Positions 1,429-21,497 of a stretch of DNA of 32,483 bases are shown piece after piece. Source of the stretch: Nitrospinae bacterium CG11_big_fil_rev_8_21_14_0_20_45_15. Its GTDB lineage: Bacteria; Nitrospinota; Nitrospinia; Nitrospinales; VA-1. The stretch is from assembly GCA_002787235.1 (NCBI GenBank), contig PCWG01000045.1:327-32809 (forward strand). Direction: 5' to 3'. The first letter of the stretch is position 1, and each line of letters begins with the position of its first letter. The notes beneath the pieces were generated by a model, which ran no database searches, was not told where the DNA came from, and worked only from the letters and a program-made list of their open reading frames with translations. Position numbers and translations under genes: made by a program.

Positions 1429-2430
1429 TCACATCTTTTTTGCCTGCCAGATGGGCATGACGTATTGTCGCTGGGAATCGTACAAGCGTTCTATTGTTTC
1501 AAATCCGCTGGATTCTGCCAGTGAATCGATTTCAAATTCTTCGTATTTGTAGGACTGCTCGGTTTGCAGGGTTTCCCATGCCTTGAAATGAAATTCCTTG
1601 TCGAGTGCTGAAATGTGAACCGACTGTTCGCAGGTACTGAAAAGATAACTTTCGATCGACCGGGTGTCCTTATTGTACTGAGCTTGCTGAACAAAATTTT
1701 CTTTTATGAAGTTGCCTCCAAGTGTTTCGTTGATGCGGTCTAACATGTATAAATTGAAATCTTCAAAAAACCCCTGATTGTCATTGTATGCGTTGTACAA
1801 TAACTTCGGATGTTTCATGAGATCGAAGCCGATGACGACGTAATCTCCGATGTTTAAATTTCCTCTCAGACGCGCCAGAAATTTTTTCATGGAAATATAA
1901 TCCATGTTCCCAAGAGTTGCTCCCAAAAAAAGGATCATGTTGCGTCGACTGGAGCTTTCTGTGGCCTGACTGAGCCCTTGAAAAAAATCTCCGATCAATC
2001 CGCTTGCACTAAAATCTGATCCCTGAAATTTTGATTCGAGATTTTTTATTAAAGAGCGAACCGCTCCGTCAGTGATATCAATGGGAATGTAATGGGTGGA
2101 CTGTCCCTCCTTTACCAGGTGGTCTATGAGTACCACTGCCTTTGCCCCGTCGCCTGCCCCGAGTTCGATGAGTTGCAGTCCGTTTTCAAAAGGCAGTCGG
2201 GCAATCACCCCGGCGTGATTTCTAATGATATCAAATTCGCAGGCAGAGGGAGGATAGTTCTCAAGCTGTGTGATTTTGTTAAACATTTCTCCCCCTCGAT
2301 CATCGAATAGTATCCAGGAGGGCAGGGCTTTGGGAGTCCTGGATAAGCCGTCCATAACGGTTTGCGCTAAATCGAGAGTGTTTGATTCAGAGGCGTCAGC
2401 AGAGTTGAGTTTTATAGTGTTAAATCGCAT
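1429..2430 (-). CDS. EgtD-family (Methyltransf_33) SAM-dependent histidine/amino-acid N-alpha-methyltransferase
   Basis: Family members use SAM to trimethylate the alpha-amino group of histidine (EgtD, ergothioneine pathway). Starting at ATG 2430 gives 333 residues, the usual length; the frame stays open to ATG 2514 but the extra 28 residues do not look like the family. Visible: F-D-D-R-G-G-E-M-F (42-50), Y-P-P (59-61), SAM motif E-L-G-A-G-D-G (89-95), P-I-D-I (116-119), L-F-L-G-A-T-L-G-N (167-175), G-F-D-L-M-K (201-206), F-N-L-Y-M-L-D-R-I-N (225-234), and T-E-Q-S-Y-K-Y (290-296). The Glu and Ser of the last motif correspond to the imidazole-binding pair of EgtD. The residue matching EgtD Met252 seems to be Ser261 (S-I-E-S-Y-L), which may alter substrate choice. 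No EgtB partner is in the window. It is divergent from the di-iron oxidase gene. Neither start has a good Shine-Dalgarno. Confidence 0.88.
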   Translation of the reverse strand: MRFNTIKLNSADASESNTLDLAQTVMDGLSRTPKALPSWILFDDRGGEMFNKITQLENYPPSACEFDIIRNHAGVIARLPFENGLQLIELGAGDGAKAVVLIDHLVKEGQSTHYIPIDITDGAVRSLIKNLESKFQGSDFSASGLIGDFFQGLSQATESSSRRNMILFLGATLGNMDYISMKKFLARLRGNLNIGDYVVIGFDLMKHPKLLYNAYNDNQGFFEDFNLYMLDRINETLGGNFIKENFVQQAQYNKDTRSIESYLFSTCEQSVHISALDKEFHFKAWETLQTEQSYKYEEFEIDSLAESSGFETIERLYDSQRQYVMPIWQAKKM

Positions 2431-2598
2431 TGGATGAGGGGTAAGGTTGACGATAAGCGGAGCCTTTGTTATGGTTAAGGATACCCTTTCAACAAATTGC
2501 CACCTCTGTTGCATTGTTGCAGGGTCAGGATTTCATAAAAGTGAAGCTTCATAATACCCAAGCTTAGAGAATTAAGCGAACCCTTTTCAAAAAATCCT

Positions 2599-3663
2599 AT
2601 GACTTTATATTTAGAGTCCCCTGTTTACGAACATCGTTTTTTAAATCTTGAAGAAGAATTTTCTGAACTCATTCGGTCAAAAGATTTACAACGCAAGGTA
2701 GATGCAGGGGATGACCAAATAACCTCTCTTGTCGCATGCATTGAAGAGGCTATTGCAGAGGCTTATAGGATAGATTCAGGGAGTCAGGAATCACACCTGT
2801 TTTTGCAACGAATTCTTTATCAGATCAACCGTATGAAGTTGTTCTGGTACGACGACCTGAAAAATTATGAAAACGAAGACTCACCGTTTCTTTTTTCGAT
2901 CCGATCCAGAATAGAGTCGGCCTGGCAGGGCTGGGAGTTGCAACAACTGGATATGGAAGGAATTGCGAATGAGGACGTCGTTGCTGAGTTGGAAGCTAGA
3001 GTTGAAAAAGATTTGCATCCTCGGTTGAGTGAAACCGGTCGTTATATTCAAAACGATATTACAGAAGCAGGATATCGTCGGCTCATGGCAATACTGTCTG
3101 TCAACGGACTGGTCGAATCAAGTCAACTTTCCAGAGTTCTCGGTGGTGTGGGGAATGAAGTGCAGTCGATGCTGACGCGGATATTTCTGGAAGAGTATGG
3201 CGGCGGCAAGCTGGCGCGCAAGCATTCAACTTTTTTTGAGGCCATGCTGAATTACTTTGATATGAATGCTAAACCAGAAGCCTATCTCGATCTGGTTCCG
3301 TGGAGTGTTCTGGCAGACATCAACCACAGCTTCACTCTTTGCGAAAGAAAAAAATATTTTCTACGTTATGCAGGCGGGTTGTTGTTCACAGAAGTGACAA
3401 CTCCTGCGGTTTTTGATAGTTATAAAATAGCTGGAGAGCGTTTGGGTTTCGACGAGACGGCGGTGGGTTATTGGGACTTGCACATGAAGGAAGACGAGAG
3501 ACACGGTCAATGGATGCTGACAGATGTCGCGTTGCCATTGGCTGAGCGATATCCGGATTGTGCGAACGATATTGTTCTGGGCTACGAACAGCAACGTTTT
3601 CTCAATATTCGTTCGGGTCAGGAGATGCTTCAATCCATTCTGTCGGCTGAGGAAGAGGCTTGA
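2599..3663 (+). CDS. Haem-oxygenase-like di-iron oxidase (HDO; iron-containing redox enzyme family)
   Basis: A 354-residue soluble helical protein of the Haem_oxygenas_2 / HDO superfamily. Characterised relatives (UndA, SznF) use a di-iron site and O2 for oxidative decarboxylation, desaturation or N-hydroxylation. Candidate ligands are E173, E199, H209, E265, H295, D299 and H302. The last three form the diagnostic H-x3-D-x2-H on the core helix (D-L-H-M-K-E-D-E-R-H-G). Spacing from E173 to H302 equals, as I remember them, the SznF ligands (189, 215, 225, 281, 311, 315, 318), offset by 16 throughout. Residues 1-130 resemble a helical dimerisation region. There is no C-terminal cupin, unlike SznF. 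ATG at 2599 directly follows a T/A-rich leader without a clear Shine-Dalgarno. It is divergent from the EgtD-like gene, suggesting joint control. The substrate is unknown; an amine or amino acid is plausible. Confidence 0.85.
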   Translation: MTLYLESPVYEHRFLNLEEEFSELIRSKDLQRKVDAGDDQITSLVACIEEAIAEAYRIDSGSQESHLFLQRILYQINRMKLFWYDDLKNYENEDSPFLFSIRSRIESAWQGWELQQLDMEGIANEDVVAELEARVEKDLHPRLSETGRYIQNDITEAGYRRLMAILSVNGLVESSQLSRVLGGVGNEVQSMLTRIFLEEYGGGKLARKHSTFFEAMLNYFDMNAKPEAYLDLVPWSVLADINHSFTLCERKKYFLRYAGGLLFTEVTTPAVFDSYKIAGERLGFDETAVGYWDLHMKEDERHGQWMLTDVALPLAERYPDCANDIVLGYEQQRFLNIRSGQEMLQSILSAEEEA

Positions 3664-8116: not shown

Positions 8117-9319
8117 TTATTGTTTGCGTCTGGAATATACCAGATATCCGGCAAAAATATTGGAGCCTACTGCCGTCAATGCGAGAAACCAGGAGCTGAC
8201 TCCAAACAGAGAAAATCCGAGCAGGTAATATGTGAAATCGCGATTGGCTATTTCAGGTGGTTCCCCGGATTTCTTTTCGGGCACAACGGCGTCATGCGAG
8301 TCTGCCTGCGCTTTCCCTTTTATAATATTTTGGTTTAAAAGTGCAAAGGAAAGTAAATTTCCCAGAACCGCGAATGCCCCCAAGGCCTTGTAAATGCCTT
8401 GACCGGTTTCAAAATACAGTCCCATGCCCAGGCAAAAGAAAACAGAGATATGAACGATATTATCGCAAAGAATATCAAATTCGGCTCCGATTTCAGACTT
8501 CATAAACTTGAGTCGGGCGACTTCACCATCGACGCAATCGACCCATGCTGAAATTTGCAACGCGACAGCACCTGCTAATATAGCCCAAAAACTCCCCTGA
8601 AAAAATAAAAGTGCGGAACCCAGACCGATAATGAGGCTCATCAAGGTGATGTGGTTGGGTGTCAAGGCAGTGGTGACAAAATAATGCGTCAGCTTGTTGG
8701 AAATACGTCGTGTGATCACACGGTCCATAAAACTGTCATTGCTCAAGCCGCTGGCGTAGATGAGCCGCTTGCTGTGCCAAGAAAAATCAGATTCTTTTTC
8801 CAGCGGGCGGGAGTTTTGAAGAATAAATAAACGCGCTGAGGGAAATGGTGACGCATCAATTTTTTCAGGAGTTTGATCACTGGAAATGAATGGCTGTTCC
8901 CATTGCAAAATTTCTTCTTCTGTTAAGGAGATCGTTGTGTAGGTTGGCTCGTTACCTTCAATCGGCATTTCCGCGAGTGCCGTTTTTAGCACCTGGTTTG
9001 AGTGAAGAAAGGCACCGTGAAAGATTTTTACATGGTTTGTTGCTTGTAGGAATTCTTTCAGTGCAGATTTTCCTTCCAGCAATCGGGGGGTGTGTGGAAG
9101 TCGAGGGTCAGCCAATTCTTTTGATAAAAGTAAATTCTCTGCAGGTGTGCAATGTGGAATATAGATGAAAAGTTCTCTCAGATTGGATTCATTCAGCTCC
9201 AGTAAATTCCTCAATAAAAGGGATACGCCAGCGATGGGTCTCAGATACCAGTCAGTACAGCGGGTGTTCAATGGCGGTTGCTGGAGAACAAGGACCGCGG
9301 TGTTGTTTGTGCTGGACAT
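8117..9319 (-). CDS. CDP-alcohol phosphatidyltransferase with decayed N-terminal nucleotidyltransferase domain (copy 1)
   Basis: A 400-residue membrane enzyme transferring a phospho-alcohol from a CDP-alcohol to another alcohol. The C-terminal catalytic motif is complete: D261-x2-D264-G265-x2-A268-R269-x8-G278-x3-D282-x3-D286. Hydrophobic helices occur at about 222-260, 286-330 and 365-395. Residues 1-200 resemble the sugar-nucleotidyltransferase domain fused in bifunctional inositol-phosphate cytidylyltransferase/DIPP synthases, with R-P-I-A-G-V-S-L-L-L-R-N-L-L matching the 'aGlPLLeR' strand-helix. The Gly-rich G-x-G-x-R loop and the metal Asp are absent (H-V-K-I-F-H-G-A-F instead), so this domain is probably inactive. 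It lies five bases downstream of a second paralogue. The product (phospholipid, inositol- or glycan-phosphodiester) cannot be named from sequence. Confidence 0.88.
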   Translation of the reverse strand: MSSTNNTAVLVLQQPPLNTRCTDWYLRPIAGVSLLLRNLLELNESNLRELFIYIPHCTPAENLLLSKELADPRLPHTPRLLEGKSALKEFLQATNHVKIFHGAFLHSNQVLKTALAEMPIEGNEPTYTTISLTEEEILQWEQPFISSDQTPEKIDASPFPSARLFILQNSRPLEKESDFSWHSKRLIYASGLSNDSFMDRVITRRISNKLTHYFVTTALTPNHITLMSLIIGLGSALLFFQGSFWAILAGAVALQISAWVDCVDGEVARLKFMKSEIGAEFDILCDNIVHISVFFCLGMGLYFETGQGIYKALGAFAVLGNLLSFALLNQNIIKGKAQADSHDAVVPEKKSGEPPEIANRDFTYYLLGFSLFGVSSWFLALTAVGSNIFAGYLVYSRRKQ

Positions 9320-9324
9320 AACAG

Positions 9325-10557
9325 TTACGGGAGTTCCTGCTGGGTTTTTCTCAGGGCCAGAGTTTTTAATCGGATGCGAAACAGTTCCAAAGCAAATAGC
9401 AAAGAGCCAAAACCCGCAAACCAGAGAAACCAGTCTAATTCCCCAACAATTCCAAATAAAAGAACAATGTAAACAAAATTTCGACTGGCGAGCAATTGGA
9501 TGGCACTATAGATAGAGGTTCCTTTGAAAAAAGCACCTTTGCCGCCCTTTGGAAAATAGATCAGGATAAAGATACCCCCTCCCCCCAGACATAGCATCGC
9601 GAAAGGGAGCAGTGCCTGGTTCCAGCCGTCTACCTTGGCAACTCCCAGCATGATACCCGTGAAGACAAAAACATTGATGACATTGTCGCATGCGGTATCG
9701 AGTTTTTCGCCAAAATCCGATTCCATGAATTTCAAACGGGCAACGTCGCCATCGCAACAATCCCATACCGCAGTGAATGCCAGTAAAAGACTTCCGATGA
9801 GTCCGCCCCAATAGTTCCCCTGAGCAAATCCATAACTCGCCAACAGGCCGATCAGCAATCCTGCCAAGGTGATCTGGTTGGGGGTGAAAGGGGTTTTGAC
9901 CAATAAAGATGAAATGCGTAATGCAAAAAAGGAATTGAACCAGATGTCCATGAGTTGACTGTAGTGGAAACGATGTTTGGCAATGAATGTCCGCTCGGCT
10001 TGCTTCAGCTCGGATCTGTTTTGGACGCTGGAAACAAAAATAGGAGCATCGGAATCGGCAGGGATAAGAGAAATATTCACAGGAGGGTTGCCTGATTGAT
10101 TCCATGAGTCAAGCGCAGACAGGCACTCCAAAGGTAGCAGAAACAGAGGAAGCCTTTCATGCCTTTCCCCAGCCATCTGTACAACATGGTTGGTTTTAAA
10201 GGATTCACTCGCTTGGCTTGTTTGAAAAAAAGAGCTGATGGTTTCTTTGAGAACGATGGTATTGGCGTTGATAGCTAGGCAATGCTTGTCTTTGAGTATT
10301 TCCAGTTGAGAAAAATAATGACCCTCCTCTAACCTGATCAAATCTCCTTTGAAACGATGATCTGTAGCCAGTTCCTTGTTGAGGTGATCGCAATCTTCGA
10401 GCTTTTTTTTTGATCCAAACAATACAATATGTTCAAATCCAACCCGATTGAGGGTGAGTATCAAACGTTTGAGTAGAGGAATGCCTGCGACTTTTTTATC
10501 AAGCAAAGATAAATCGAAGGAAGGTGGAATAAATATGGCAGCAAAACAATTATTCAT
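9325..10557 (-). CDS. CDP-alcohol phosphatidyltransferase with decayed N-terminal nucleotidyltransferase domain (copy 2)
   Basis: Paralogue of the next gene, 410 residues with the same two-part layout. The catalytic signature is intact: D266-x2-D269-G270-x2-A273-R274-x8-G283-x3-D287-x3-D291. The N-terminal part keeps the fold-like segment V-A-G-I-P-L-L-K-R-L-I-L-T-L-N-R-V-G-F (23-41) and a following strand H-I-V-L-F-G, but begins A-A-I-F-I-P-P-S-F where an active enzyme has A-A-G-x-G-x-R. The metal-binding Asp position reads I-N-A-N-T (96-100). Nucleotidyl transfer is therefore unlikely. The signature L-K-F-M after A-R is shared by both copies, which indicates duplication. It starts eight bases after the TonB-family stop. 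Two copies may form a heterodimer or serve two acceptors. Confidence 0.88.
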   Translation of the reverse strand: MNNCFAAIFIPPSFDLSLLDKKVAGIPLLKRLILTLNRVGFEHIVLFGSKKKLEDCDHLNKELATDHRFKGDLIRLEEGHYFSQLEILKDKHCLAINANTIVLKETISSFFQTSQASESFKTNHVVQMAGERHERLPLFLLPLECLSALDSWNQSGNPPVNISLIPADSDAPIFVSSVQNRSELKQAERTFIAKHRFHYSQLMDIWFNSFFALRISSLLVKTPFTPNQITLAGLLIGLLASYGFAQGNYWGGLIGSLLLAFTAVWDCCDGDVARLKFMESDFGEKLDTACDNVINVFVFTGIMLGVAKVDGWNQALLPFAMLCLGGGGIFILIYFPKGGKGAFFKGTSIYSAIQLLASRNFVYIVLLFGIVGELDWFLWFAGFGSLLFALELFRIRLKTLALRKTQQELP

Positions 10558-11790: not shown

Positions 11791-13365
11791 ATGAGCGTTA
11801 AGGTTCTGTTTGTTTACCCAAATACCTACGGCATGAACATGCTTCCTCCTGCGATTGCGCTGTTTTCGGCTTTGCTGAAAGGAAGAGGGCATCAGGTGGA
11901 CTTATTTGACGCAACCTATTATCAAACCGATTATGGTGTAGATTCCGACGGAACCAAGGCGACTCGTTTGAATGTTGTTCCCTTCAATCCTGATGAGAAA
12001 GGGATTCTCTTACGTACCACCGACTGGCGAGATGATATTCGCGAGAAGGTCCAGTCTTTTTCTCCCGATCTCATCGCACTGTCAACGACTGAAGACATGT
12101 GGCTTCTCGGAGTCCAGTTACTTGAAGAAATACAAGATCATATCAAGCGTCATAAAATACCTGTCATAGCAGGCGGTGTCTTCCCTACTTTTGCGCCGGA
12201 AATTGTTATCAAACAAGATTTGATTGACATGGTTTGTGTGGGCGAAGGGGAAAATGCGCTTCTTGATCTCTGCGATCGTATTGATAAAGGCAATTCCTGG
12301 GATGACGTGACGAATTTGTGGGTGAAGCAAAGGGATGGTTCGGTTCTCAAAAATTCCATTTCAAATCCCTTTGACATCAACGATACGCCTATCATTGATA
12401 TTGACCTTTTTGAAGAGCAAAGGCTTTTTAGGCCTATGGCGGGCAAGTGGTACAAGATGATGCCCATTGAAACGATCCGAGGATGCCCCTATAAATGTGC
12501 CTTTTGCAATTCTCCCGATCAGTTGACTCTTTATGACGATGCAACGGAAACAACTTTTTTCCGGAAAAAAAGTATTGAGCTGGTATACCGCGAGCTCAAG
12601 CATTTTAAAGAGAATTATGGCATTGAATACAATTATTTCTGGGCAGATACATTTCTTTCCTGGAACAACCGCGAGTTCGACGAATTTTGTGACATGTATT
12701 CAGATATTGGTCTTCCATTCTGGATGCAAACACGCCCGGAAACTCTGACAGATTATAAAGTCAAGCGTCTTGCTGAGGTTGGACTCCATCGAATTTCCTT
12801 TGGCATTGAGCATGGCAATGAAAACTTCCGGAAAAAGTTTCTGAAACGCGACTGGAAGAACGATGCGATTATAAAAGCATTGAAAATTCCAGTTCGGCAC
12901 AATGTTTCCTTCAGCTTGAACAACATCACTGGTTTTCCCACGGAAACCCGCGAATTGGCTATGGATACGGTCGAGTTGAACCGTCATATCGATTCCAACA
13001 ATCAAAACTTATATTCCTTTGTACCGTTTCATGGCACTCAGCTTAGGAAATTGTGTGAGGAAATGGGGTTGGTATCTCCCGAGACGATCACAAAGGCACT
13101 CACCGATAAGCCCATGCTTGTCCAGAAACAGTATCCGCCCGAACAGATTGAAGGCTTGCAGAAATGTTTCGTGCTTTACGTGAAAATGCCCAAAAGCCGA
13201 TGGAAGGATATTGAACGGGCAGAAGCAAATACGACGGAAGGTAACCGGATTTTTGAAGAATTGAAACAGGAATATCTGGAAAAATACGCCGTCAATTCTA
13301 CGGGAACGGATTCTAACTCTGCTGATTTGGAATACGGTGTGGAAGCTGTGAAACCCTCAATTTGA
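11791..13365 (+). CDS. Cobalamin-binding radical SAM protein
   Basis: A 524-residue enzyme with an N-terminal B12-binding Rossmann domain (about 1-170: V-L-F-V-Y-P-N, S-P-D-L-I-A-L-S-T-T, I-P-V-I-A-G-G-V-F-P-T, V-G-E-G-E-N) and a radical SAM core with C232-x3-C236-x2-C239 (R-G-C-P-Y-K-C-A-F-C-N). Such proteins catalyse methylation of unactivated carbons, ring contractions or other radical steps. The C-terminal ~150 residues include F-V-P-F-H-G-T and F-V-L-Y-V-K-M-P-K-S-R-W and are typical of the B12-radical SAM group found in surface-polysaccharide loci. A GGAG lies six bases before ATG 11791. It is alone on the plus strand between two minus-strand glycan runs. A 121-base divergent region separates it from the TonB-family gene. 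The substrate is unknown. Confidence 0.9.
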   Translation: MSVKVLFVYPNTYGMNMLPPAIALFSALLKGRGHQVDLFDATYYQTDYGVDSDGTKATRLNVVPFNPDEKGILLRTTDWRDDIREKVQSFSPDLIALSTTEDMWLLGVQLLEEIQDHIKRHKIPVIAGGVFPTFAPEIVIKQDLIDMVCVGEGENALLDLCDRIDKGNSWDDVTNLWVKQRDGSVLKNSISNPFDINDTPIIDIDLFEEQRLFRPMAGKWYKMMPIETIRGCPYKCAFCNSPDQLTLYDDATETTFFRKKSIELVYRELKHFKENYGIEYNYFWADTFLSWNNREFDEFCDMYSDIGLPFWMQTRPETLTDYKVKRLAEVGLHRISFGIEHGNENFRKKFLKRDWKNDAIIKALKIPVRHNVSFSLNNITGFPTETRELAMDTVELNRHIDSNNQNLYSFVPFHGTQLRKLCEEMGLVSPETITKALTDKPMLVQKQYPPEQIEGLQKCFVLYVKMPKSRWKDIERAEANTTEGNRIFEELKQEYLEKYAVNSTGTDSNSADLEYGVEAVKPSI

Positions 13366-13384
13366 CCTGCAGATTTAAGTCGGG

Positions 13385-15082
13385 TCAATGCATTTGTAGA
13401 AAATCTCGAACGCCTTGTTCATCGACCGGCTGGAAGTAATTTTTCCTCACTTCATCCGCCAGTTCAAATTCCCGTCTCAGATCATTTGGGTCTTTATTTT
13501 TGTAAAAAACCACCGATTTGGCCAACTCTTCAGATGTGTAGCAAATTCGCCATAAGAGAGGGTCGACATCCTCCGGTATGGCGTGGTGAGTCAACCCACT
13601 GGTACTTCCAATGATAATTACAGGAACTTGCCAGGCGATGGCCTCCATGAGGACTCCCGAGCCAGCACTGATCAATACCCGGCTATCTCCCAGCCATTGT
13701 TCCAACTTCCCTTCCACAAATTGAAAATTTGAGGGAAGTGAGAAGGGAATGCTTTTAAGAATATCTTGCTGGGAGCAGGTGGGATGCATTTTTAATAAAA
13801 AATGCATATTTTCATCATTGAGTATTTTGTACATCTCATGAATGCGTTGTAGGATCTCAACGGCCTTGTCAATGAGTATCGGGAATGCAACCAAGATGAA
13901 AAATTTTTCACTGATAGATTTTTTTTCCGAACGATTCCAAATATAGCGGTATCGAAATGCGGGTGCTGTTCCCACCTTTAAATCGGGAGCATGTTCTTTG
14001 ACTTGCGTGACAATCCCCTCACCCATGACCTGTATTTTTTCTGGAAGTAATTTTAATTTTTCTTCAAGTGCCGTCGGAAAGACGCAGTGATGATGTCTGG
14101 GCAACAAGAAGCCAATATAGCCAATCGTTTCGATTTCAGGATAGTATTTTCTAAAACCCGCATTCCAGCCCTTGTCCACAATTTGATTTTCAAACCAGTT
14201 GACCGCCATTTTCAGAACAATTCCTTTCTCCTTCAGGCGATGACTGAACCGATAGTTCAGCAGGGCGGTCATCGCGGGGCCTACTTCCTCCAGAGAACGA
14301 ATTTCTTCAACGACCAGAGGTTTGATGTTTACTCCTGAAAATTGAACGGACGGGATTCTCAAAAATCGTGAACGCAAAACATAGCCCCAAGCATAAAAAT
14401 AATCTTCCCATTTTAGAAAATCCTCTTTCAGTAAATAATTTTTATTACTGTTTCTAAGGGCCTTGTAGGTGTCTTTCAAACGGGAAGATGAAATTTTATA
14501 AAGTGTGGGGACAAAAAAAATCTTCTGCTTTTCCTTCTCACTGAGAAAATCGAGGAGACCGGGATAATAAACTTCGGTGTCGATAGAATAGTCTTGTACA
14601 AACAGATCGATCAGAATCGCATCGGGGGGGATGAATTTTTTTTCGTAGTCGGTGTCTCTTGCCTGCCAATGGGAATAAAAAATTTTCAGTGGTGTCAGGA
14701 AAGTTTTTTTCAGCCAGAGTGTGGACTTTTTTAATAAAGAAATGTCAGGTATCTGAATCTCTGGAAGTGTTTCTTTGCCGGAAAAAATGGGTGCGAGAAT
14801 TTTTTTGACCGCTGAGGAATCGACAAGGATTGAATCAATTTTTATTTTCTCGGCGAGTAGCTCCTGAACAAGACGAATACAGCAACAATGATGAAAAAAA
14901 GGGCTGGCATAGCCGTTACGACTGGGGGGGCCGGAAACCCACCAATCGAGATTGGCTTCGTTACCTTTTGAAAGTCCCTCTATCAAATCGTGAAAAGGAG
15001 TGCGGATTTCCTCTGCAATCCGACCCATCCGTTGAGACAATTCCATTCCCAGTTTGCCGTCGAATCGTAAGTCAAGAATCAT
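13385..15082 (-). CDS. GT-B-like surface carbohydrate biosynthesis protein
   Basis: About 565 residues from ATG 15082 (TTG 15109 would add nine; neither has a Shine-Dalgarno). The second half looks like a GT-B / CDP-glycerol glycerophosphotransferase-type fold. K-M-H-P-T-C-S-Q-Q recalls the family 'K.HP' motif, and L-I-S-A-G-S-G-V-L-M-E-A-I-A-W-Q-V-P-V-I-I-I recalls the 'S.S...EA...G.P' donor-binding motif. G-Y-I-G-F-L-L-P-R-H-H-H precedes a helical linker. The N-terminal half is unassigned and begins D-L-R-F-D-G. It most resembles the surface carbohydrate biosynthesis proteins of Leptospira-type LPS loci (TIGR04326 group), from memory. No membrane span. Last gene of the long minus-strand glycan run, convergent with the B12 radical SAM gene; the two stop codons lie within an imperfect TTGACC/GGTCAA repeat. 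Confidence 0.65.
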   Translation of the reverse strand: MILDLRFDGKLGMELSQRMGRIAEEIRTPFHDLIEGLSKGNEANLDWWVSGPPSRNGYASPFFHHCCCIRLVQELLAEKIKIDSILVDSSAVKKILAPIFSGKETLPEIQIPDISLLKKSTLWLKKTFLTPLKIFYSHWQARDTDYEKKFIPPDAILIDLFVQDYSIDTEVYYPGLLDFLSEKEKQKIFFVPTLYKISSSRLKDTYKALRNSNKNYLLKEDFLKWEDYFYAWGYVLRSRFLRIPSVQFSGVNIKPLVVEEIRSLEEVGPAMTALLNYRFSHRLKEKGIVLKMAVNWFENQIVDKGWNAGFRKYYPEIETIGYIGFLLPRHHHCVFPTALEEKLKLLPEKIQVMGEGIVTQVKEHAPDLKVGTAPAFRYRYIWNRSEKKSISEKFFILVAFPILIDKAVEILQRIHEMYKILNDENMHFLLKMHPTCSQQDILKSIPFSLPSNFQFVEGKLEQWLGDSRVLISAGSGVLMEAIAWQVPVIIIGSTSGLTHHAIPEDVDPLLWRICYTSEELAKSVVFYKNKDPNDLRREFELADEVRKNYFQPVDEQGVRDFLQMH

Positions 15083-15129
15083 TGAGGAGTATTTTTTTGA
15101 GTGTGACAAACCCGCAGTGATCAGGTTTT

Positions 15130-16188
15130 TTAAAAATCAACGGGTTGAAGGACTTCTATAAGAGCTTGCATTTTTTCAACGGGACCGATCGAAATTCTGA
15201 GATAAGTTTCAAAGCCTTCTATTGCAAGTCCGCCGCGAACCAAAATCCCTGCTTTTGAAAGTAGGTTGATAACGGTTTGTTTATTGTCCTTGAAATCAAT
15301 GTAAACGAAGTTGGCGTGTGTGTCTTGAAAATTCAGCCCCTTTGATTTGGCAAACTCAAGAAGAGACTTTTTCCCCTGTTCTGTATCGGAGAGGTAGTTT
15401 TCAGAAATTTCAGGCTGGTCCAATAATTTCATCGCGGCCAGGATACAGAGGGAATTGACTTCATACATCGGGCGAAACTTGTACAGCAGTTGAGCGACCT
15501 CAGGTTGTGCGACAAGATAACCGATGCGGAGGCCCGCCAGACCGTAAGCTTTTGAGAACGTCCTGCTGACAATCAGGTTATCGTGCTCGTTCAGTAAAGA
15601 GATAGCCGTTTGTTTGCAGAATCCGTAGTAGGCCTCATCGACCAATACGGGAACCTGAAAGCTGGCGGCTTTGACAATAATAGCTGTGAGATCTGTTTCA
15701 GAAATCAGGGTTCCTGTTGGGCTGTTGGGATTTGCGATGACAACCAATTCTGTTTTTGGCCCAATGCTATTTAGAAGGCCGGGGATATCGAGTTGTAATT
15801 GAGTGTCATAACCGATGGCCTTTTTTTGCGCGCCGTGTAATTCACAATAAATATCTACCATCGCAAAAGTGGGATCAAGAACGATGACCTCTCCGCCCGG
15901 ATTTACAAACAAATCGAAGCAGTGTCGAATCGCCGCATCGGAGCCAGCGGTGATCATGAGTTGGTCCACGTTCAGCTGGTGCAGTTGCGCCAATTTCTCA
16001 TACAGAGCCTCGGGCTCAGGATACGCCGTCAGATGGTCTGAACGGATGTCTGCGATAAAGGCATCGAAAAATTCTTTCGGGAAATCTGTGATGCGCTCGT
16101 TCTTGTCCAGTCTTATCAAACCATGACGGGTTTTTGATTCGCCGCGTAAACGATGGACGCTTTTGACCCATGCTTTATGTTTTATCAT
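15130..16188 (-). CDS. Class I/II PLP aminotransferase, histidinol-phosphate aminotransferase-like
   Basis: A 352-residue fold-type I PLP enzyme. Landmarks: R-L-D-K-N-E (27-32), A-Y-P-E-P (55-59), A-G-S-D-A-A-I (81-87), A-N-P-N-S-P-T-G-T (152-160), D-E-A-Y-Y-G-F (184-190), the Schiff-base lysine K213 in S-R-T-F-S-K-A-Y-G-L-A-G-L-R, and the C-terminal Y-L-R-I-S-I-G with its carboxylate Arg. HisC works in histidine biosynthesis, but no other his gene is here. The neighbours are a SPASM radical SAM enzyme (10 bases upstream) and a GT-like gene, so a role in making an amino sugar or amino alcohol for a glycan is more likely. HisC-like proteins in capsule loci have also turned out to be phospho-amino-acid decarboxylases, so the reaction type is open. 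Confidence 0.88.
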   Translation of the reverse strand: MIKHKAWVKSVHRLRGESKTRHGLIRLDKNERITDFPKEFFDAFIADIRSDHLTAYPEPEALYEKLAQLHQLNVDQLMITAGSDAAIRHCFDLFVNPGGEVIVLDPTFAMVDIYCELHGAQKKAIGYDTQLQLDIPGLLNSIGPKTELVVIANPNSPTGTLISETDLTAIIVKAASFQVPVLVDEAYYGFCKQTAISLLNEHDNLIVSRTFSKAYGLAGLRIGYLVAQPEVAQLLYKFRPMYEVNSLCILAAMKLLDQPEISENYLSDTEQGKKSLLEFAKSKGLNFQDTHANFVYIDFKDNKQTVINLLSKAGILVRGGLAIEGFETYLRISIGPVEKMQALIEVLQPVDF

Positions 16189-16198
16189 TTTTAAATTC

Positions 16199-17362
16199 CT
16201 AGATCACCGTGCATGCGGTGCAGGGTTTTCTGCTTTCGCGTTTGTTGTTGAGATGATCGGCTCTCAGTTCTTCGTAGTCGGCAGAACGCCACAACTCGGT
16301 CAAATCAAGGTCCTTTAGAAAACCTTTTGACAGAGTCGATTTGTAATCAACATCGCAGGGGTTCGCTTGACCGTCCCACCAGACGAACATTCGACGCCAT
16401 AAATCCGAACAGGGTTTGCTGATTCCGTTTGCGGGCTGGCTGTAAACATTTTCCCAGGGATTGTATTGTACGAACGCGACCTGGTCGACAAGATCGCCCC
16501 AGACTTTCTGCATGGAATTGATGTCCTGCTCGTCCGAAAATTTAACGCCTGAAACACGGGTGATGACGGGAAGGTTGGAATACTGGATCTGTCGAATTTT
16601 TTGGAATCGCTCGATGTTGCTGAGAACAGTAGCGAGATTGCCGTTAACGCGCAGTTTACTGTACAGAGGCTCCGTTGCAGCATCCGCAGAAAATACCACT
16701 GTTTTTACGCCACCGGAAAGTATGGCGTGACATTTTTCTTCATCCAGCAAAGATGCATTGGTGTTGATTTTCAGATTGAGAAATTTTCCGCGTGTGTATT
16801 CCAGCATGGGAACGATGTCTTTGCAGATCAACGGTTCTCCTCTGGAAGCCAGTGAAATGAACTCAATGTTCCCCACGGCCTGATCGATGATTTGTTTGAA
16901 CAGGTCCAGTGACATTTGACCCATGAATCCATGCGATTTGTCGGAAAAGGTAGGGTCCGTTTCAAAGCAGAATACGCACCGAAAATTACAAATCGAGGTG
17001 GGTTCGATTTGAAGATAGGGTGGATACGCGTCAAGAATTCTATTTTGAGGATAGATTTCATAGCGGTAGCGATGCACCAGATAACGCGGTAAATCGGCAT
17101 CGGATACGGTTGCGATTTCTTCCACTACATTTGGACTGAGTGAAAAACACGGTCGATTGTTTTCCGGCGTTGGAGAAAGCAGGTCTTTGCAGAGCTGATC
17201 AAAAATGGGTCGATGCGGCTCCGACAAATTTTTGAGGCAATCTTCCTTGTCGGACAGCTCGGCAATACGCTTCATGGATACAGCGAGCAGATCATTGTTC
17301 TGGTGCCGGATCTCGACAAAGCTGTTGTGTTTTTCGTAGATGGGGCGATTTTTCTCGGTCAC
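16199..17362 (-). CDS. Radical SAM protein with C-terminal SPASM/twitch cysteines
   Basis: A 387-residue radical SAM enzyme. The SAM-cleaving cluster motif is C125-x3-C129-x2-C132 (S-I-C-N-F-R-C-V-F-C), preceded by a 110-residue N-terminal extension. F-I-S-L-A-S-R-G-E-P-L (168-178) is the GE/SAM-binding part. C-terminal Cys C318, C336, C381 and C384 (P-C-D-V-D-Y; P-C-T-A-C) form a SPASM-like auxiliary Fe-S site, typical of enzymes acting on peptides, sugars or alcohols. The start is GTG 17362 with AGAGGA about ten bases upstream. It sits 14 bases after the CMP-sugar synthetase and 10 before the HisC-like gene, so it is in the operon. Such enzymes in glycan loci may epimerise, dehydrogenate or rearrange a sugar; the exact reaction is not shown. 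Confidence 0.9.
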   Translation of the reverse strand: MTEKNRPIYEKHNSFVEIRHQNNDLLAVSMKRIAELSDKEDCLKNLSEPHRPIFDQLCKDLLSPTPENNRPCFSLSPNVVEEIATVSDADLPRYLVHRYRYEIYPQNRILDAYPPYLQIEPTSICNFRCVFCFETDPTFSDKSHGFMGQMSLDLFKQIIDQAVGNIEFISLASRGEPLICKDIVPMLEYTRGKFLNLKINTNASLLDEEKCHAILSGGVKTVVFSADAATEPLYSKLRVNGNLATVLSNIERFQKIRQIQYSNLPVITRVSGVKFSDEQDINSMQKVWGDLVDQVAFVQYNPWENVYSQPANGISKPCSDLWRRMFVWWDGQANPCDVDYKSTLSKGFLKDLDLTELWRSADYEELRADHLNNKRESRKPCTACTVI

Positions 17363-17376
17363 TTTTTGTCTGTCCT

Positions 17377-18132
17377 CTACGCTTCTTCAAATCCGTGTTT
17401 GCGAAGCCAGAATTCAACCATAGGCACCTGCCATTCGTAGTCAACGTCGCATCCGCCCCAGTTTGGAATAGGGGCGATGTTCTGTCCCATCCATTTTTGC
17501 GGTAAAAGTCCCTCTGCCATTTTCTCCAGACATTTTGGGCGGACGACAGAAACCCCCATATCGGCAAAATGGACATCTCCCTGAGAATCGCGGTCACAAT
17601 TCAGAGAACGAGGATCTCCAAATGTTTCGAAAGGAACCATGGGGCGCAGACACCCGTCGGGCCCCAGTTTGCGTGCGCGAAGCGGACTCCACATATTGTA
17701 AACCGAAGTGGTGACTGCGGAGTCAAAGGTTTCATCATTGCGAAGAATTTCGATTCCCTTGTCAATCAGTACGCTATTCAAAGTTGCGGCGTTGGCAAAT
17801 AATAAGACGATCAGTTCGACGCGTTTGCCTTCTTCAGCAAGCAGTCGTTTGATCTCATAATACCCGTGGGCAAAGACATCTTCTCCCAATGCTTGTTTGG
17901 TTGCCAGTTCGGGTGGACGTTCGATCAACTCAGCACCGTGCTCTTTGGCAAGGGTCATGATTTCAGGGCAATCGGTTGAAACAAAAACCCGTTTAACATG
18001 AGAAGATTCCTTTGCCGCTAACAGCGGATAGCTGACGAGGGGACGCCCTAAAACGGGATAAACATTTTTTCCGGGAAACGCAACACTGCCTTTACGTCCA
18101 ATCACAAGCGCACAAACAATAGATTCACTCAC
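17377..18132 (-). CDS. Acylneuraminate cytidylyltransferase family (CMP-sugar synthetase)
   Basis: A 251-residue NeuA/KdsB-like enzyme joining CMP from CTP to an acidic sugar or related hydroxy acid, making an activated donor for glycan assembly. The nucleotide loop is G-R-K-G-S-V-A-F-P-G-K-N-V (12-24), followed by G-R-P-L-V-S-Y-P-L. V-S-T-D-C-P-E-I (the S-T-D motif) and E-R-P-P-E-L-A are in place. P-I-P-N-W-G-G-C-D-V-D-Y-E-W-Q near the end matches the family's D-I-D-x-x-x-D region. GTG 18132 follows AAGGA by eight bases. It begins 21 bases after the HAD phosphatase stop, consistent with a phosphatase-then-activation pathway. No sialic-acid synthase (NeuB) is nearby, so the sugar is probably not a standard nonulosonate made here. 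Confidence 0.9.
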   Translation of the reverse strand: MSESIVCALVIGRKGSVAFPGKNVYPVLGRPLVSYPLLAAKESSHVKRVFVSTDCPEIMTLAKEHGAELIERPPELATKQALGEDVFAHGYYEIKRLLAEEGKRVELIVLLFANAATLNSVLIDKGIEILRNDETFDSAVTTSVYNMWSPLRARKLGPDGCLRPMVPFETFGDPRSLNCDRDSQGDVHFADMGVSVVRPKCLEKMAEGLLPQKWMGQNIAPIPNWGGCDVDYEWQVPMVEFWLRKHGFEEA

Positions 18133-18153
18133 TGATACATTCCTTAAAAAAAA

Positions 18154-18810
18154 TCAAAAATTTAAATCATCGAAAGAACATCCCTGCAACCGTTTTTGCA
18201 GATCTTGATTGAAAGGGGTACGGCGCAGTAAAAAGGACACGTTATTTTTCTCGGCGGCATGGAAGTCGGTTGAAGAATCTCCCACCACCAAAGCCTGTTC
18301 GGCGGGACAACCAAGGCGGTTCAATACCTCGCTGACGACTTCGGTTTTAGGCTTCGGTGCGCCGTAAATTTCTCTAAAATAATGGGCGATTCCCAACGCA
18401 TTCAATATGCTTTCAATTTCTTCCTGAGGGGTCGCGGTGATCAAAATAAAATGTTGGTCGGTGTGGTTTATCTGCAAATATTCGCGTACCCCGGGGACCC
18501 ATGGAGAATCAACCACGGCTTGCTGAACTAAATTTGAAAATTGCTCACAAAGATCCTGAATCCGTTCTGGGGAGCTTGTCGTACCTGTCCAGCTCAAGTA
18601 TAGCGGAATTTTCTCATAACGGGAAACACCCCCATGAAGACTGTGGTGATGGCGTACCTTTTTGATCACATCCATGCCGTAGGAAGAGAACAGCTTCTCA
18701 TATCCCTCTGACTTTACAGTGACAGAATCTTTGATCACACCGTCAAAGTCCCAGAAGATCACTTGCCGGGATTTTAATAGAGCGCAAGCCTCTTGTTTTA
18801 AATCAGTCAT
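18154..18810 (-). CDS. HAD-superfamily phosphatase
   Basis: A 218-residue HAD hydrolase of the phosphoglycolate phosphatase-like (subfamily IA) type, removing phosphate from a small metabolite. Motif I is W-D-F-D-G-V-I-K-D (nucleophile first Asp), motif II I-L-I-T-A-T-P, motif III Lys in A-P-K-P-K-T-E-V, and motif IV V-V-G-D-S-S-T-D. The helical cap between motifs I and II is present (about 30-110). ATG 18810 is preferred to GTG 18819; neither has a clear Shine-Dalgarno. It lies directly upstream of the CMP-sugar synthetase in the run, suggesting it dephosphorylates the sugar phosphate before activation, as KdsC does in the Kdo pathway. Confidence 0.88.
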   Translation of the reverse strand: MTDLKQEACALLKSRQVIFWDFDGVIKDSVTVKSEGYEKLFSSYGMDVIKKVRHHHSLHGGVSRYEKIPLYLSWTGTTSSPERIQDLCEQFSNLVQQAVVDSPWVPGVREYLQINHTDQHFILITATPQEEIESILNALGIAHYFREIYGAPKPKTEVVSEVLNRLGCPAEQALVVGDSSTDFHAAEKNNVSFLLRRTPFNQDLQKRLQGCSFDDLNF

Positions 18811-18861
18811 GGCAGTCACTGTGCTTGCGTGCGATGCCCTGTTTGATTATGTATTTTCTGG

Positions 18862-19785
18862 TTATGAGTCTTCATTGTCGATGGGATTTCCCTGAGAATT
18901 CGATTGTTCAATGCGTACTTCGTCGATCAATTGCAACAGGCCTTGCCCCAGATCCACATGAAGTGGTGGCACGTATTTTCGGCCCAGACGGGGTTGATAC
19001 GCATAAGGTGTGCGAACGTAGTGTCCGATCAATTCTTTTTCTATAAATTCAACTTTATCAGGGATGCCCAGAATTTCGGCCAGCATCTTTAACAAATCGC
19101 TCACGCGCATGGGTTCCTGACCCGTGAGGACGACACTCTGATTGCGAAAGTCATTTCCCAATGCGACGACGCTGGCTTTGGCGGCATCTTCAACGTGAAT
19201 GTATTCGCGTAAGGAGTCCGAGCTTCCTTCATAGCTTACTTTGCCGGTTTCCATCGCTCTGCGAACAATGCGGAGGAGACCATTGCCATCGTCCGCTCTG
19301 GGGCCATAAAGAGAACCGTAGCGCAGGATGGTGTAGTCAAGATTGAAAACGCGTTGGTATTCTTCAACATAGTGCTCACCGGCCTGTTTACTGCATCGGT
19401 AAAATCCGCCTTCGCGGCTGTACACGTAAACGGTGCTGGCATAAACGTAACGTTTCACATTGTGTTTCTTGCAGGCTTCCAGTGCATGAACGTTACCGAG
19501 TACATTGATTTTTACGGTTTCTATCGGCTTGTCAAGAGCTTGATTGAGGTCTGCGAGAGCCGCAAAGTTATACACTGCCTGAGAACCGGAAATCGCTTGA
19601 TCGAGTCGATCCAGGTCGAGCAGGTCGCCGATGATCATTTCTTGTCCGGGTTGTTTCCAGGGAGAGTCCACCCAGTCATAGATGCGCACCTGAAATCCGG
19701 CCGCGCTCAAATGATCGGCGACGTGGGAACCGATGAAACCGCTTCCCCCAATCACCGTTACAATGCCCTTTTTATTTCCAGTCAT
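18862..19785 (-). CDS. NAD-dependent epimerase/dehydratase (extended SDR)
   Basis: A 307-residue extended short-chain dehydrogenase acting on nucleotide sugars. The NAD-binding G-G-S-G-F-I-G (13-19) is near the N-terminus, D-L-L-D-L-D marks the adenine-binding region, and the catalytic Y-x3-K appears in G-F-Y-R-C-S-K-Q-A-G-E. R-Y-G-S-L-Y-G-P-R follows, as in UDP-glucose 4-epimerase relatives. V-Y-A-S-T-V-Y-V-Y contains the catalytic Ser/Thr. The ATG overlaps the stop of the upstream 2-hydroxyacid dehydrogenase by four bases (ATGA), so translation is coupled. Whether it is an epimerase, dehydratase or reductase is not evident from the sequence. Confidence 0.9.
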   Translation of the reverse strand: MTGNKKGIVTVIGGSGFIGSHVADHLSAAGFQVRIYDWVDSPWKQPGQEMIIGDLLDLDRLDQAISGSQAVYNFAALADLNQALDKPIETVKINVLGNVHALEACKKHNVKRYVYASTVYVYSREGGFYRCSKQAGEHYVEEYQRVFNLDYTILRYGSLYGPRADDGNGLLRIVRRAMETGKVSYEGSSDSLREYIHVEDAAKASVVALGNDFRNQSVVLTGQEPMRVSDLLKMLAEILGIPDKVEFIEKELIGHYVRTPYAYQPRLGRKYVPPLHVDLGQGLLQLIDEVRIEQSNSQGNPIDNEDS

Positions 19786-20765
19786 AGATTTTGGCTTTGA
19801 ATGCGATATTCTTCTTGAGGAACTTCACTCTCTAGTGTTTTCCCTGTTAAAAAGCGTACAGCCTCTTCAGTGGCTTTGATTTCCATTTCGGTACGACAGT
19901 CAATGGACATGGAGCCCATGTGGGCCGTCAGCAAACATCGTTCAATTTGAGCGAGCTTGCCATTGTAAGGTTCATTTTCAAACACATCCATAGCCGCGCC
20001 ACTGAGGTGTCCTTCAGCCATGACATCGTGGAGATCGTCCTCGTTGATGATGCCCCCGCGTGATGTGTTGATCAGCATCGCGTCTTTTTTCATTGCCAGT
20101 AATTGCTCGCGCCGGATCATGTCCTGGGTCAATTGTGTCAAGGGAAGGTGCAGGCTGATGAGGTCTGCCTCTGAATATATTTTTTCCTTGGAGACCCAGG
20201 CAAGTTTGAATTCCTTATCCAGTTTGTGATTGGGCTGGATGTCGTTGGCCAGGATTTTGAGCATACCAAAGCCTTTCATGCAACGCAATACACGGGTTCC
20301 AATCCTCCCCATTCCTATGATACCAATGACCACTTCGGACAGTCTTCGCCCGTAAATGCGATGCCATTTCCCCTGATGCATTTGCGTGTTGGAAACATGT
20401 GTCGAGCGCAGGAGGGTCAACATCATTCCCAGCGTGAGTTCGGCTACCGCCGGGCTTGGGCTGTCGGGTGTGTAAGAAACTTTGATTCCCCGTCGTTGCG
20501 CTGAAAGCAGGTCGACACTGTCCAGACCGATGCCTACTCTTGAGATCAGTTTGAGTTTGTTGGCATGTGCCAGAACCTTTTCGGTGATCGGTTCCGTTCC
20601 TGCAATCAAAACATCGAATTCAGGAATCATATTGGCCAACTGATCTTCCGTGAGCTTTTTGTTATGCGGATTGATCAGATACTCGATATTGGCTTTTTCG
20701 AGCAATTCCAAAGGCCGAGGATTTTTATCTCCAAAAGGGACCGTGGTGATGAGTGCTTTTGCCAT
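19782..20765 (-). CDS. D-isomer-specific 2-hydroxyacid dehydrogenase (phosphoglycerate dehydrogenase-like)
   Basis: A 327-residue NAD-dependent dehydrogenase of the SerA/PdxB superfamily. The Rossmann motif is G-I-I-G-M-G-R-I-G-T-R-V (147-158), with an acidic residue at the end of the next strand (A-N-D-I). Catalytic residues are visible: Arg in N-T-S-R-G-G-I-I-N-E, Glu in D-V-F-E-N-E-P, and His in L-L-T-A-H-M-G-S. The ACT domain of SerA is absent. Neighbours argue for a role in supplying a hydroxy-acid or keto-acid precursor for the surface glycan rather than serine synthesis. It starts six bases after the 6-phosphogluconolactonase stop. Confidence 0.9.
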   Translation of the reverse strand: MAKALITTVPFGDKNPRPLELLEKANIEYLINPHNKKLTEDQLANMIPEFDVLIAGTEPITEKVLAHANKLKLISRVGIGLDSVDLLSAQRRGIKVSYTPDSPSPAVAELTLGMMLTLLRSTHVSNTQMHQGKWHRIYGRRLSEVVIGIIGMGRIGTRVLRCMKGFGMLKILANDIQPNHKLDKEFKLAWVSKEKIYSEADLISLHLPLTQLTQDMIRREQLLAMKKDAMLINTSRGGIINEDDLHDVMAEGHLSGAAMDVFENEPYNGKLAQIERCLLTAHMGSMSIDCRTEMEIKATEEAVRFLTGKTLESEVPQEEYRIQSQNL

Positions 20766-20771
20766 TTTGTA

Positions 20772-21497
20772 TTACCAGCGAGACTCTAAAAAGTCTTGAA
20801 AATTTCTGCTATTTTTAAAATCATTTCTAATTTGACTGCTCGCATCTCTGTCCAATAGCCAGGTACCTCCCAAGGTCAGACGAACGGGCAGGGAGGAAAA
20901 ATCGGTTTTAGATTCAAAAGCTGTGTCCAGAGTTTTGCCTTTTGCAATTCCCGTGGCCAAAACAAAAATATACCGGGCGCGAGTGATGACATCGGGAGTT
21001 ACGGTCAAACGTTGACAGGGTGCTTTGGGTCCTGTGATGGATTCTACCCCCCTTCGTTCTGAAAGCAGGACCGGGTCGTGAGGGAAAAGCGATGCGATGT
21101 GGCCGTCCTCTCCCATGCCCAGAAGCAGGACATCAATGGTTTCTGGAAGCATTTGAGCGTAGGCTTTTGCCGCCGCCGCCCGGTCTGGGTTTTCAGCTTC
21201 CATACGAACGATGGAAGTCACTCCGGGCAAAGTCCTCATCACCAACGCATAATTGCTTTCGGGATGATCGGGTGCCACGCAACGCTCATCACCCAAGTAG
21301 AAGTGTATTTTATCCAGTGGCAACGCAGAAGTGCGGGACCAATACAGATACAAACGTTCTGCGACGGTTCCACCTGTGAGCATGAGATTACAAGTGCCCT
21401 GTCTGGAGATAACAAGTTCTACAGCTTTTCCGACTGCTTCCGCCGCCATCTCTGGCCAACTGTCCCAATCGTCACTGGTCAAAATACATGGTTCCAA
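20772..21497 (-). CDS. pgl: 6-phosphogluconolactonase
   Basis: A 241-residue enzyme hydrolysing 6-phosphogluconolactone in the oxidative pentose phosphate pathway. Family marks: L-M-L-T-G-G-T-V-A-E-R-L-Y (38-50), Y-L-G-D-E-R-C-V-A-P (67-76), S-N-Y and the signature L-G-M-G-E-D-G-H-I-A-S-L-F-P (128-141). The start is TTG 21497, the only codon that yields the usual N-terminus; CAGGTG lies about nine bases upstream. No zwf or gnd gene is next to it. Its place inside the glycan run suggests either a metabolic supply role or recruitment. The related glucosamine-6-phosphate deaminase family is less likely, given the intact signature. Confidence 0.92.
   Translation of the reverse strand: MEPCILTSDDWDSWPEMAAEAVGKAVELVISRQGTCNLMLTGGTVAERLYLYWSRTSALPLDKIHFYLGDERCVAPDHPESNYALVMRTLPGVTSIVRMEAENPDRAAAAKAYAQMLPETIDVLLLGMGEDGHIASLFPHDPVLLSERRGVESITGPKAPCQRLTVTPDVITRARYIFVLATGIAKGKTLDTAFESKTDFSSLPVRLTLGGTWLLDRDASSQIRNDFKNSRNFQDFLESRW

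Follow-up and report, generated by a model that had tools for sequence, protein, structure and literature searches.

A conserved SznF-type di-iron oxidase and its exchangeable methyltransferase partners: a candidate N-oxygenation unit in Nitrospinota, Nitrospirota and cyanobacteria

Two divergent genes in the 32,483-nucleotide stretch of DNA analysed here (the window) encode a methyltransferase (MT) and a heme-oxygenase-like di-iron oxidase (HDO) that appear to form a small biosynthetic unit. In the model that, on balance, we lean towards, the HDO would be a di-iron N-oxygenase of the same type as SznF and RohS that depends on O2 and acts first, on a nitrogen atom in some common small amine, with an amino acid or a guanidine-like compound as the most likely choice; a SAM-dependent MT would then methylate, and so tailor, the N-oxygenated product. 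One HDO would be served by three interchangeable MTs: EgtD-like in Nitrospinota and part of the Nitrospirales, HemK-like in cyanobacteria, and a Methyltransf_25 protein in two other Nitrospirota. The homology, invariant ligands, fold, adjacency, co-occurrence and partner replacement described below were all established by computation. The locus is organised as follows.

1429..2514, minus strand: MT, an EgtD-family (PF10017) SAM-dependent methyltransferase (PF10017 E=2.2e-83)
2431..2598, no strand: spacer between the divergent genes, with no RNA element matched in Rfam; the gaps in relatives range from tens to a few hundred bases
2599..3663, plus strand: HDO, a heme-oxygenase-like di-iron oxidase of 354 aa (PF14518 E=2e-28; 3H/4C ligands)

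The MT probably starts at position 2430 (Met29 of the longest open reading frame), where nearly all of its relatives begin. With this start the spacer measures 168 bases, the length given in the initial annotation, as against 84 bases with the longest frame, and it would be expected to carry the promoters of both genes. No electron donor gene is encoded beside the pair. The genome, a Nitrospinota genome of Nitrospinaceae type, contains a single PF10017 gene and a single PF14518 gene, and its closest named relative is OFTM96 (Nitrospinaceae bacterium; 76% HDO identity).

The divergent arrangement is conserved. Among 60 relatives the HDO was found in 36, the MT in 30 and both in 28, and in every one of these 28 the two genes are divergent neighbours; the two MTs that occur without an HDO both lie at contig ends. 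In an evenly drawn sample of 296 Nitrospirota genomes, 12 contain the HDO and eight a close MT (~48% identity), which adjoins the HDO in all eight (co-occurrence p ~4e-13, with shared ancestry ignored). The mirror-tree correlation between MT and HDO is 0.965 (32 pairs). The genes flanking the pair vary between genera, and neither Nitrospinota nor Nitrospirota showed a third conserved gene in the unit. Next to the Nostoc HDO, c3-c6 and c8 turn up repeatedly, which they do not in other groups. Accidental adjacency was ruled out by these conserved neighbours together with the co-occurrence of the two functions in Nitrospinota, Nitrospirota and cyanobacteria. The initial annotation had proposed a functional MT–oxidase pair and named adjacency in related genomes as a check; the neighbourhoods bear out the check, and with the co-occurrence across phyla they argue for the pair.

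The same HDO also occurs with different MTs. A scan of GTDB contigs identified cyanobacterial HDOs with 50-58% identity that are not accompanied by an EgtD-like MT. Their partner is an unrelated HemK/PrmC-like MT of 231-242 aa with an NPPY motif, and its predicted model has a class I SAM methyltransferase fold. An NPPY motif typically marks enzymes whose methylation targets are planar NH2 groups. Within an evenly drawn sample of 339 cyanobacterial genomes, the HDO is present in 26 and the HemK-like MT in exactly those 26 (p about 2e-39, again ignoring shared ancestry). The two genes may be tandem, convergent or unlinked, and at two loci where the HemK-like MT is not adjacent it lies elsewhere in the genome. 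This varied gene order, with its unlinked cases, is a better argument for an association of HDO and MT than the probabilities, which are only a rough guide because they ignore shared ancestry. The initial annotation had described the MT as EgtD-type; the HemK-like partner shows that the system does not require this.

A third kind of partner is seen in two Nitrospirota (L142 and L179), where a Methyltransf_25 protein is encoded 34-56 bases downstream of the HDO and the flanks are different. Elsewhere the HDO stands alone. Seven Nitrospinota genomes retain it without the MT; they fall on roughly three branches of the HDO tree, which is rooted at its midpoint and contains several weak nodes. No HemK-like MT was found as a hidden partner in these seven. 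Two further Nitrospirota (G067 and G545) have the HDO only, with no convincing Methyltransf_25 partner hidden in either, and so does G064, a cyanobacterium outside the 339-genome sample. The MT is therefore not obligatory everywhere. At the Binatia HDO loci a glycosyltransferase and a PLP decarboxylase take the place of the MT.

Several neighbouring observations deserve mention. All that is left in G125 (G125:C1:194480-195247) is adjoining fragments of the two genes, HDO and HemK-like MT, which look as though they decayed together. G065, the Binatia genome behind L128, has twelve PF14518 matches; its orthologue of the window HDO overlaps the glycosyltransferase gene by four bases, and the PLP decarboxylase is nearby. 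Plasmids yielded only distant relatives of the HDO, in three records (L209, L210 and L211), each followed directly by a CDGSH or Rieske 2Fe-2S protein, a possible electron donor.

Across these partners the HDO itself changes little: a single position separates EgtD-partnered from HemK-partnered proteins (90% level). Because the HDO sequence hardly depends on the partner MT, and because the HDO survives loss of the MT, the HDO is more likely to act first, although this argument is indirect; the order of the steps and the type of substrate are both inferences. A common HDO substrate followed by replaceable methylation most simply accounts for the partner swaps and the MT losses. The initial annotation had placed the steps the other way round, as in SznE/SznF, so that the MT would make an N-methyl amino acid or guanidine for the HDO to oxygenate. 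We regard this order as possible, but we do not favour it. It has a clear precedent, in that SznE supplies N-omega-methyl-arginine to SznF (PMC11705231). Furthermore, SznF and RohS, the nearest characterised HDOs by sequence profile, act on a guanidine or aminoimidazole nitrogen, and the NPPY motif of the cyanobacterial MT would suit such a role. Different MTs could yield one identical methylated substrate. However, methylation first would need either this convergence of three unlike MTs or partner-specific HDO pockets, and only the one diagnostic HDO position was found. Retention of the HDO in genomes without an MT also speaks against it, as does the fact that EgtD-family enzymes methylate an alpha-amine, not a guanidine.

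Assignment of the oxidase as an N-oxygenase, the first step of the preferred model, draws on its ligands and fold. The protein passes PF14518 with 99.7 bits against a cut-off of 28.9. In the HMMER alignment with SznF (6m9r), E173, E199, H209, E265, H295, D299 and H302 pair with E189, E215, H225, E281, H311, D315 and H318 at a constant offset of 16, exactly as given in the initial annotation; this correspondence far exceeds chance. E215, H225, E281, H311, D315 and H318 of SznF are metal-binding and essential (PMC11705231). None of the seven ligands varies among 26 relatives belonging to the same order, nor in a set of 51 sequences that spans Nitrospinota, Nitrospirota, Cyanobacteria and Binatia. 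With three His and four carboxylates, the HDO belongs to the 3H/4C (SznF-type) subset, which comprises about a quarter of HDOs and was first seen in SznF (2026 review, PMC13108848). As also annotated initially, SznF's cupin domain is absent: the reading frame stops at residue 354 and has no cupin match.

An AlphaFold2 model of the HDO (pLDDT 86, pTM 0.87; weak around residues 170-210) gave a consistent picture. Its best 17 PDB fold matches are all HrmI, SznF or RohS (Foldseek, probability 1.00), and FlcD, CADD, BesC and UndA are much weaker. Of the two proteins named for comparison in the initial annotation, SznF is among these best matches and UndA reaches only E ~0.09. Taken with the invariant ligands, these matches support an N-oxygenase-type di-iron site, as first proposed, and suggest that the ligands converge on one site. 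We favour N-oxygenation as the probable chemistry because N-oxygenases are the nearest relatives both by profile (RohS and SznF) and by predicted fold (HrmI, SznF and RohS). A different reaction, such as C-C cleavage, desaturation or the self-sacrificing p-aminobenzoate synthesis of CADD/NePabS, is unlikely. HDO functions do diverge with identical ligands, so that the same set can serve different chemistries, and reactions have been assigned to only about a dozen HDOs (PMC13108848). Against this, N-oxygenases account for the 3H/4C set and for every one of the top 17 fold matches, with UndA, BesC and CADD far behind.

The MT, in turn, is related to EgtD yet probably differs from it in the substrate pocket. 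It scores 259 bits against the EgtD equivalog TIGR03438, short of the 290.9 cut-off; the best of 21 MT relatives reaches E=4e-83, compared with E=1e-94 to 1e-100 for genes that pass. In the alignment with M. smegmatis EgtD, from which the numbering is taken, Y56, N166, Y206, E282 and S284 are retained as Y87, N203, Y243, E319 and S321, but T213 and M252 are replaced by F250 and S289. Both replacements occur in 37 of 37 pair MTs. Thr213 is kept in the EgtD of egt loci and in metallopterin-type EgtD; Ser in place of M252 is found at metallopterin-type loci too. Thr213 of EgtD places a water at the imidazole; the residues that hold the carboxylate are Tyr206, Ser284 and Tyr56 (PMC8593015). Since the amino and carboxylate contacts are kept but Thr213 has become Phe, an alpha-amino acid probably still fits the pair MT, although the pocket for its side chain is altered. 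By these sequence measures, it belongs to the EgtD family but is not EgtD. A histidine substrate, or the imidazole considered initially, fits poorly with the invariant Phe, even though the amino and carboxylate contacts persist.

Could the pair nevertheless follow an ergothioneine-like route, with the MT making trimethylhistidine and the HDO oxidising or sulfurising its imidazole? We consider this very improbable. It is true that PF10017 includes EgtD, that the MT keeps the amino/carboxylate contacts and the E282 equivalent, and that C-S bond formation on trimethylhistidine arose several times in evolution (PMC9516567). Moreover, full-length EgtB above the cut-off was found in none of 56 relatives, and the best EgtB match in the genome itself scores 92 bits and is confined to the C-terminal part, in a search that covered only EgtB/OvoA-like sulfoxide synthases. 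However, the Phe at position 213 contrasts with the Thr of egt-locus and metallopterin-type EgtD, and the cyanobacterial partner MT lies outside the EgtD family altogether. In addition, in all eight Nitrospirota (Nitrospira) genomes that carry the pair, a second gene of the EgtD family lies elsewhere (29-34% identity to P0002). In three of three such genomes tested, this second gene passes the EgtD cut-off (332-336 bits) and has a PLP lyase-like neighbour, and in two of the three an EgtB/OvoA-like gene is nearby. An ergothioneine role for the MT was accordingly rejected on the missed TIGR03438 cut-off, the clade-specific T213F, the absence of EgtB above the cut-off from the 56 relatives and the second EgtD-family gene in Nitrospira. 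Nor did we find the use that the initial annotation had considered, an MT working in an ergothioneine pathway without the HDO, given the missed cut-off, T213F and the lack of EgtB in relatives.

Least probable of all is that the HDO mainly guards against peroxide or oxidative stress, as reported for Acinetobacter DtpC, the MT link being secondary: DtpC is an HDO required for desiccation tolerance (PMC13232832) and many of the host cyanobacteria live on land, but this leaves the strict cyanobacterial MT partner unexplained.

No published description of the MT–HDO pair was found in the open-access literature, most subscription papers lying outside the scope of the search. The logic, an N-oxygenase HDO with a methyltransferase, is known; the type of partner and the taxonomic range are new. 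One orthologous HDO is linked by phyletic co-occurrence to MTs of three families in several phyla. More tentatively, at close to an even chance, the pair may represent a family of methylated and N-oxygenated metabolites of amino-acid type that has yet to be described, the products of a single conserved HDO working with lineage-specific MTs, common to marine nitrite oxidisers and a minority of cyanobacteria and with a role outside classical antibiotic clusters. If the model is confirmed, nitrite oxidisers and cyanobacteria would share an N-oxygenated metabolite new to science, and partner swapping would reveal how methylation tailors an HDO product. As an orphan system the pair is tractable: both enzymes are short and soluble, no megasynthase is involved, and cyanobacterial hosts exist in culture.

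Other loci were noted in passing. In the window, 8117-10557 (minus strand) encodes two tandem ~400-aa proteins, each with an N-terminal part of ~200 aa that has no Pfam match and then a CDP-alcohol phosphatidyltransferase domain, reminiscent of bifunctional nucleotidyltransferase/CDP-alcohol transferases. At 11791-21497 lie genes for a B12-binding radical SAM protein, a putative glycosyltransferase, an aminotransferase, a SPASM radical SAM protein, a cytidylyltransferase, a HAD phosphatase and an NAD-dependent epimerase, then an apparent D-2-hydroxyacid dehydrogenase and a 6-phosphogluconolactonase-like gene; the run may encode a pathway to an uncommon sugar or head group. Two Nitrospirota loci (L196:7095-8123 and L197:7315-8328) have EgtD-family genes right after a ~1130-aa molybdopterin-type enzyme, as in the published arrangement of metallopterin-dependent ergothioneine synthase. 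In the Nitrospira gene clusters L203 and L208, an EgtB/OvoA-like protein and an EgtD above the cut-off are encoded together with a class V PLP lyase and ABC transporter genes of glycine-betaine/choline type, a set that probably serves ergothioneine synthesis and transport.

The pair resembles several known systems in part. Metallopterin-dependent ergothioneine synthase (MES) with EgtD likewise places an EgtD-family gene beside a redox enzyme, and the MTs at such loci are the nearest non-pair relatives of the pair MT that we saw (34-38% identity); there, however, a molybdopterin enzyme stands where the pair has its HDO, and the MT retains Thr213. EgtD itself, the histidine N-alpha-methyltransferase of ergothioneine synthesis, shares the PF10017 fold, the SAM site and the amino/carboxylate contacts, but the pair MT falls under the equivalog cut-off, carries T213->F and M252->S, and has an HDO partner. 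The azomycin N-oxygenase RohS and the lysine N-oxygenase HrmI are, like the window HDO, stand-alone HDOs, RohS (with A3) being its best profile match and HrmI its best fold match; they differ in gene neighbourhood and share 18-19% identity over the fold alignments, and HrmI is 3H/3C (PMC13108848), unlike the 3H/4C window protein. SznE/SznF has the identical HDO ligand set at a constant offset, the N-oxygenase fold and a SAM methyltransferase partner, and the conserved association of MT with HDO is found here as well. In contrast to SznF, the window HDO has no cupin domain, and in place of a guanidino MT like SznE its partner is an MT of the EgtD family or, in other lineages, a HemK-like or Methyltransf_25 protein. 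Finally, the unit here consists of two genes and not a larger cluster, and the evidence leans towards oxygenation before methylation.
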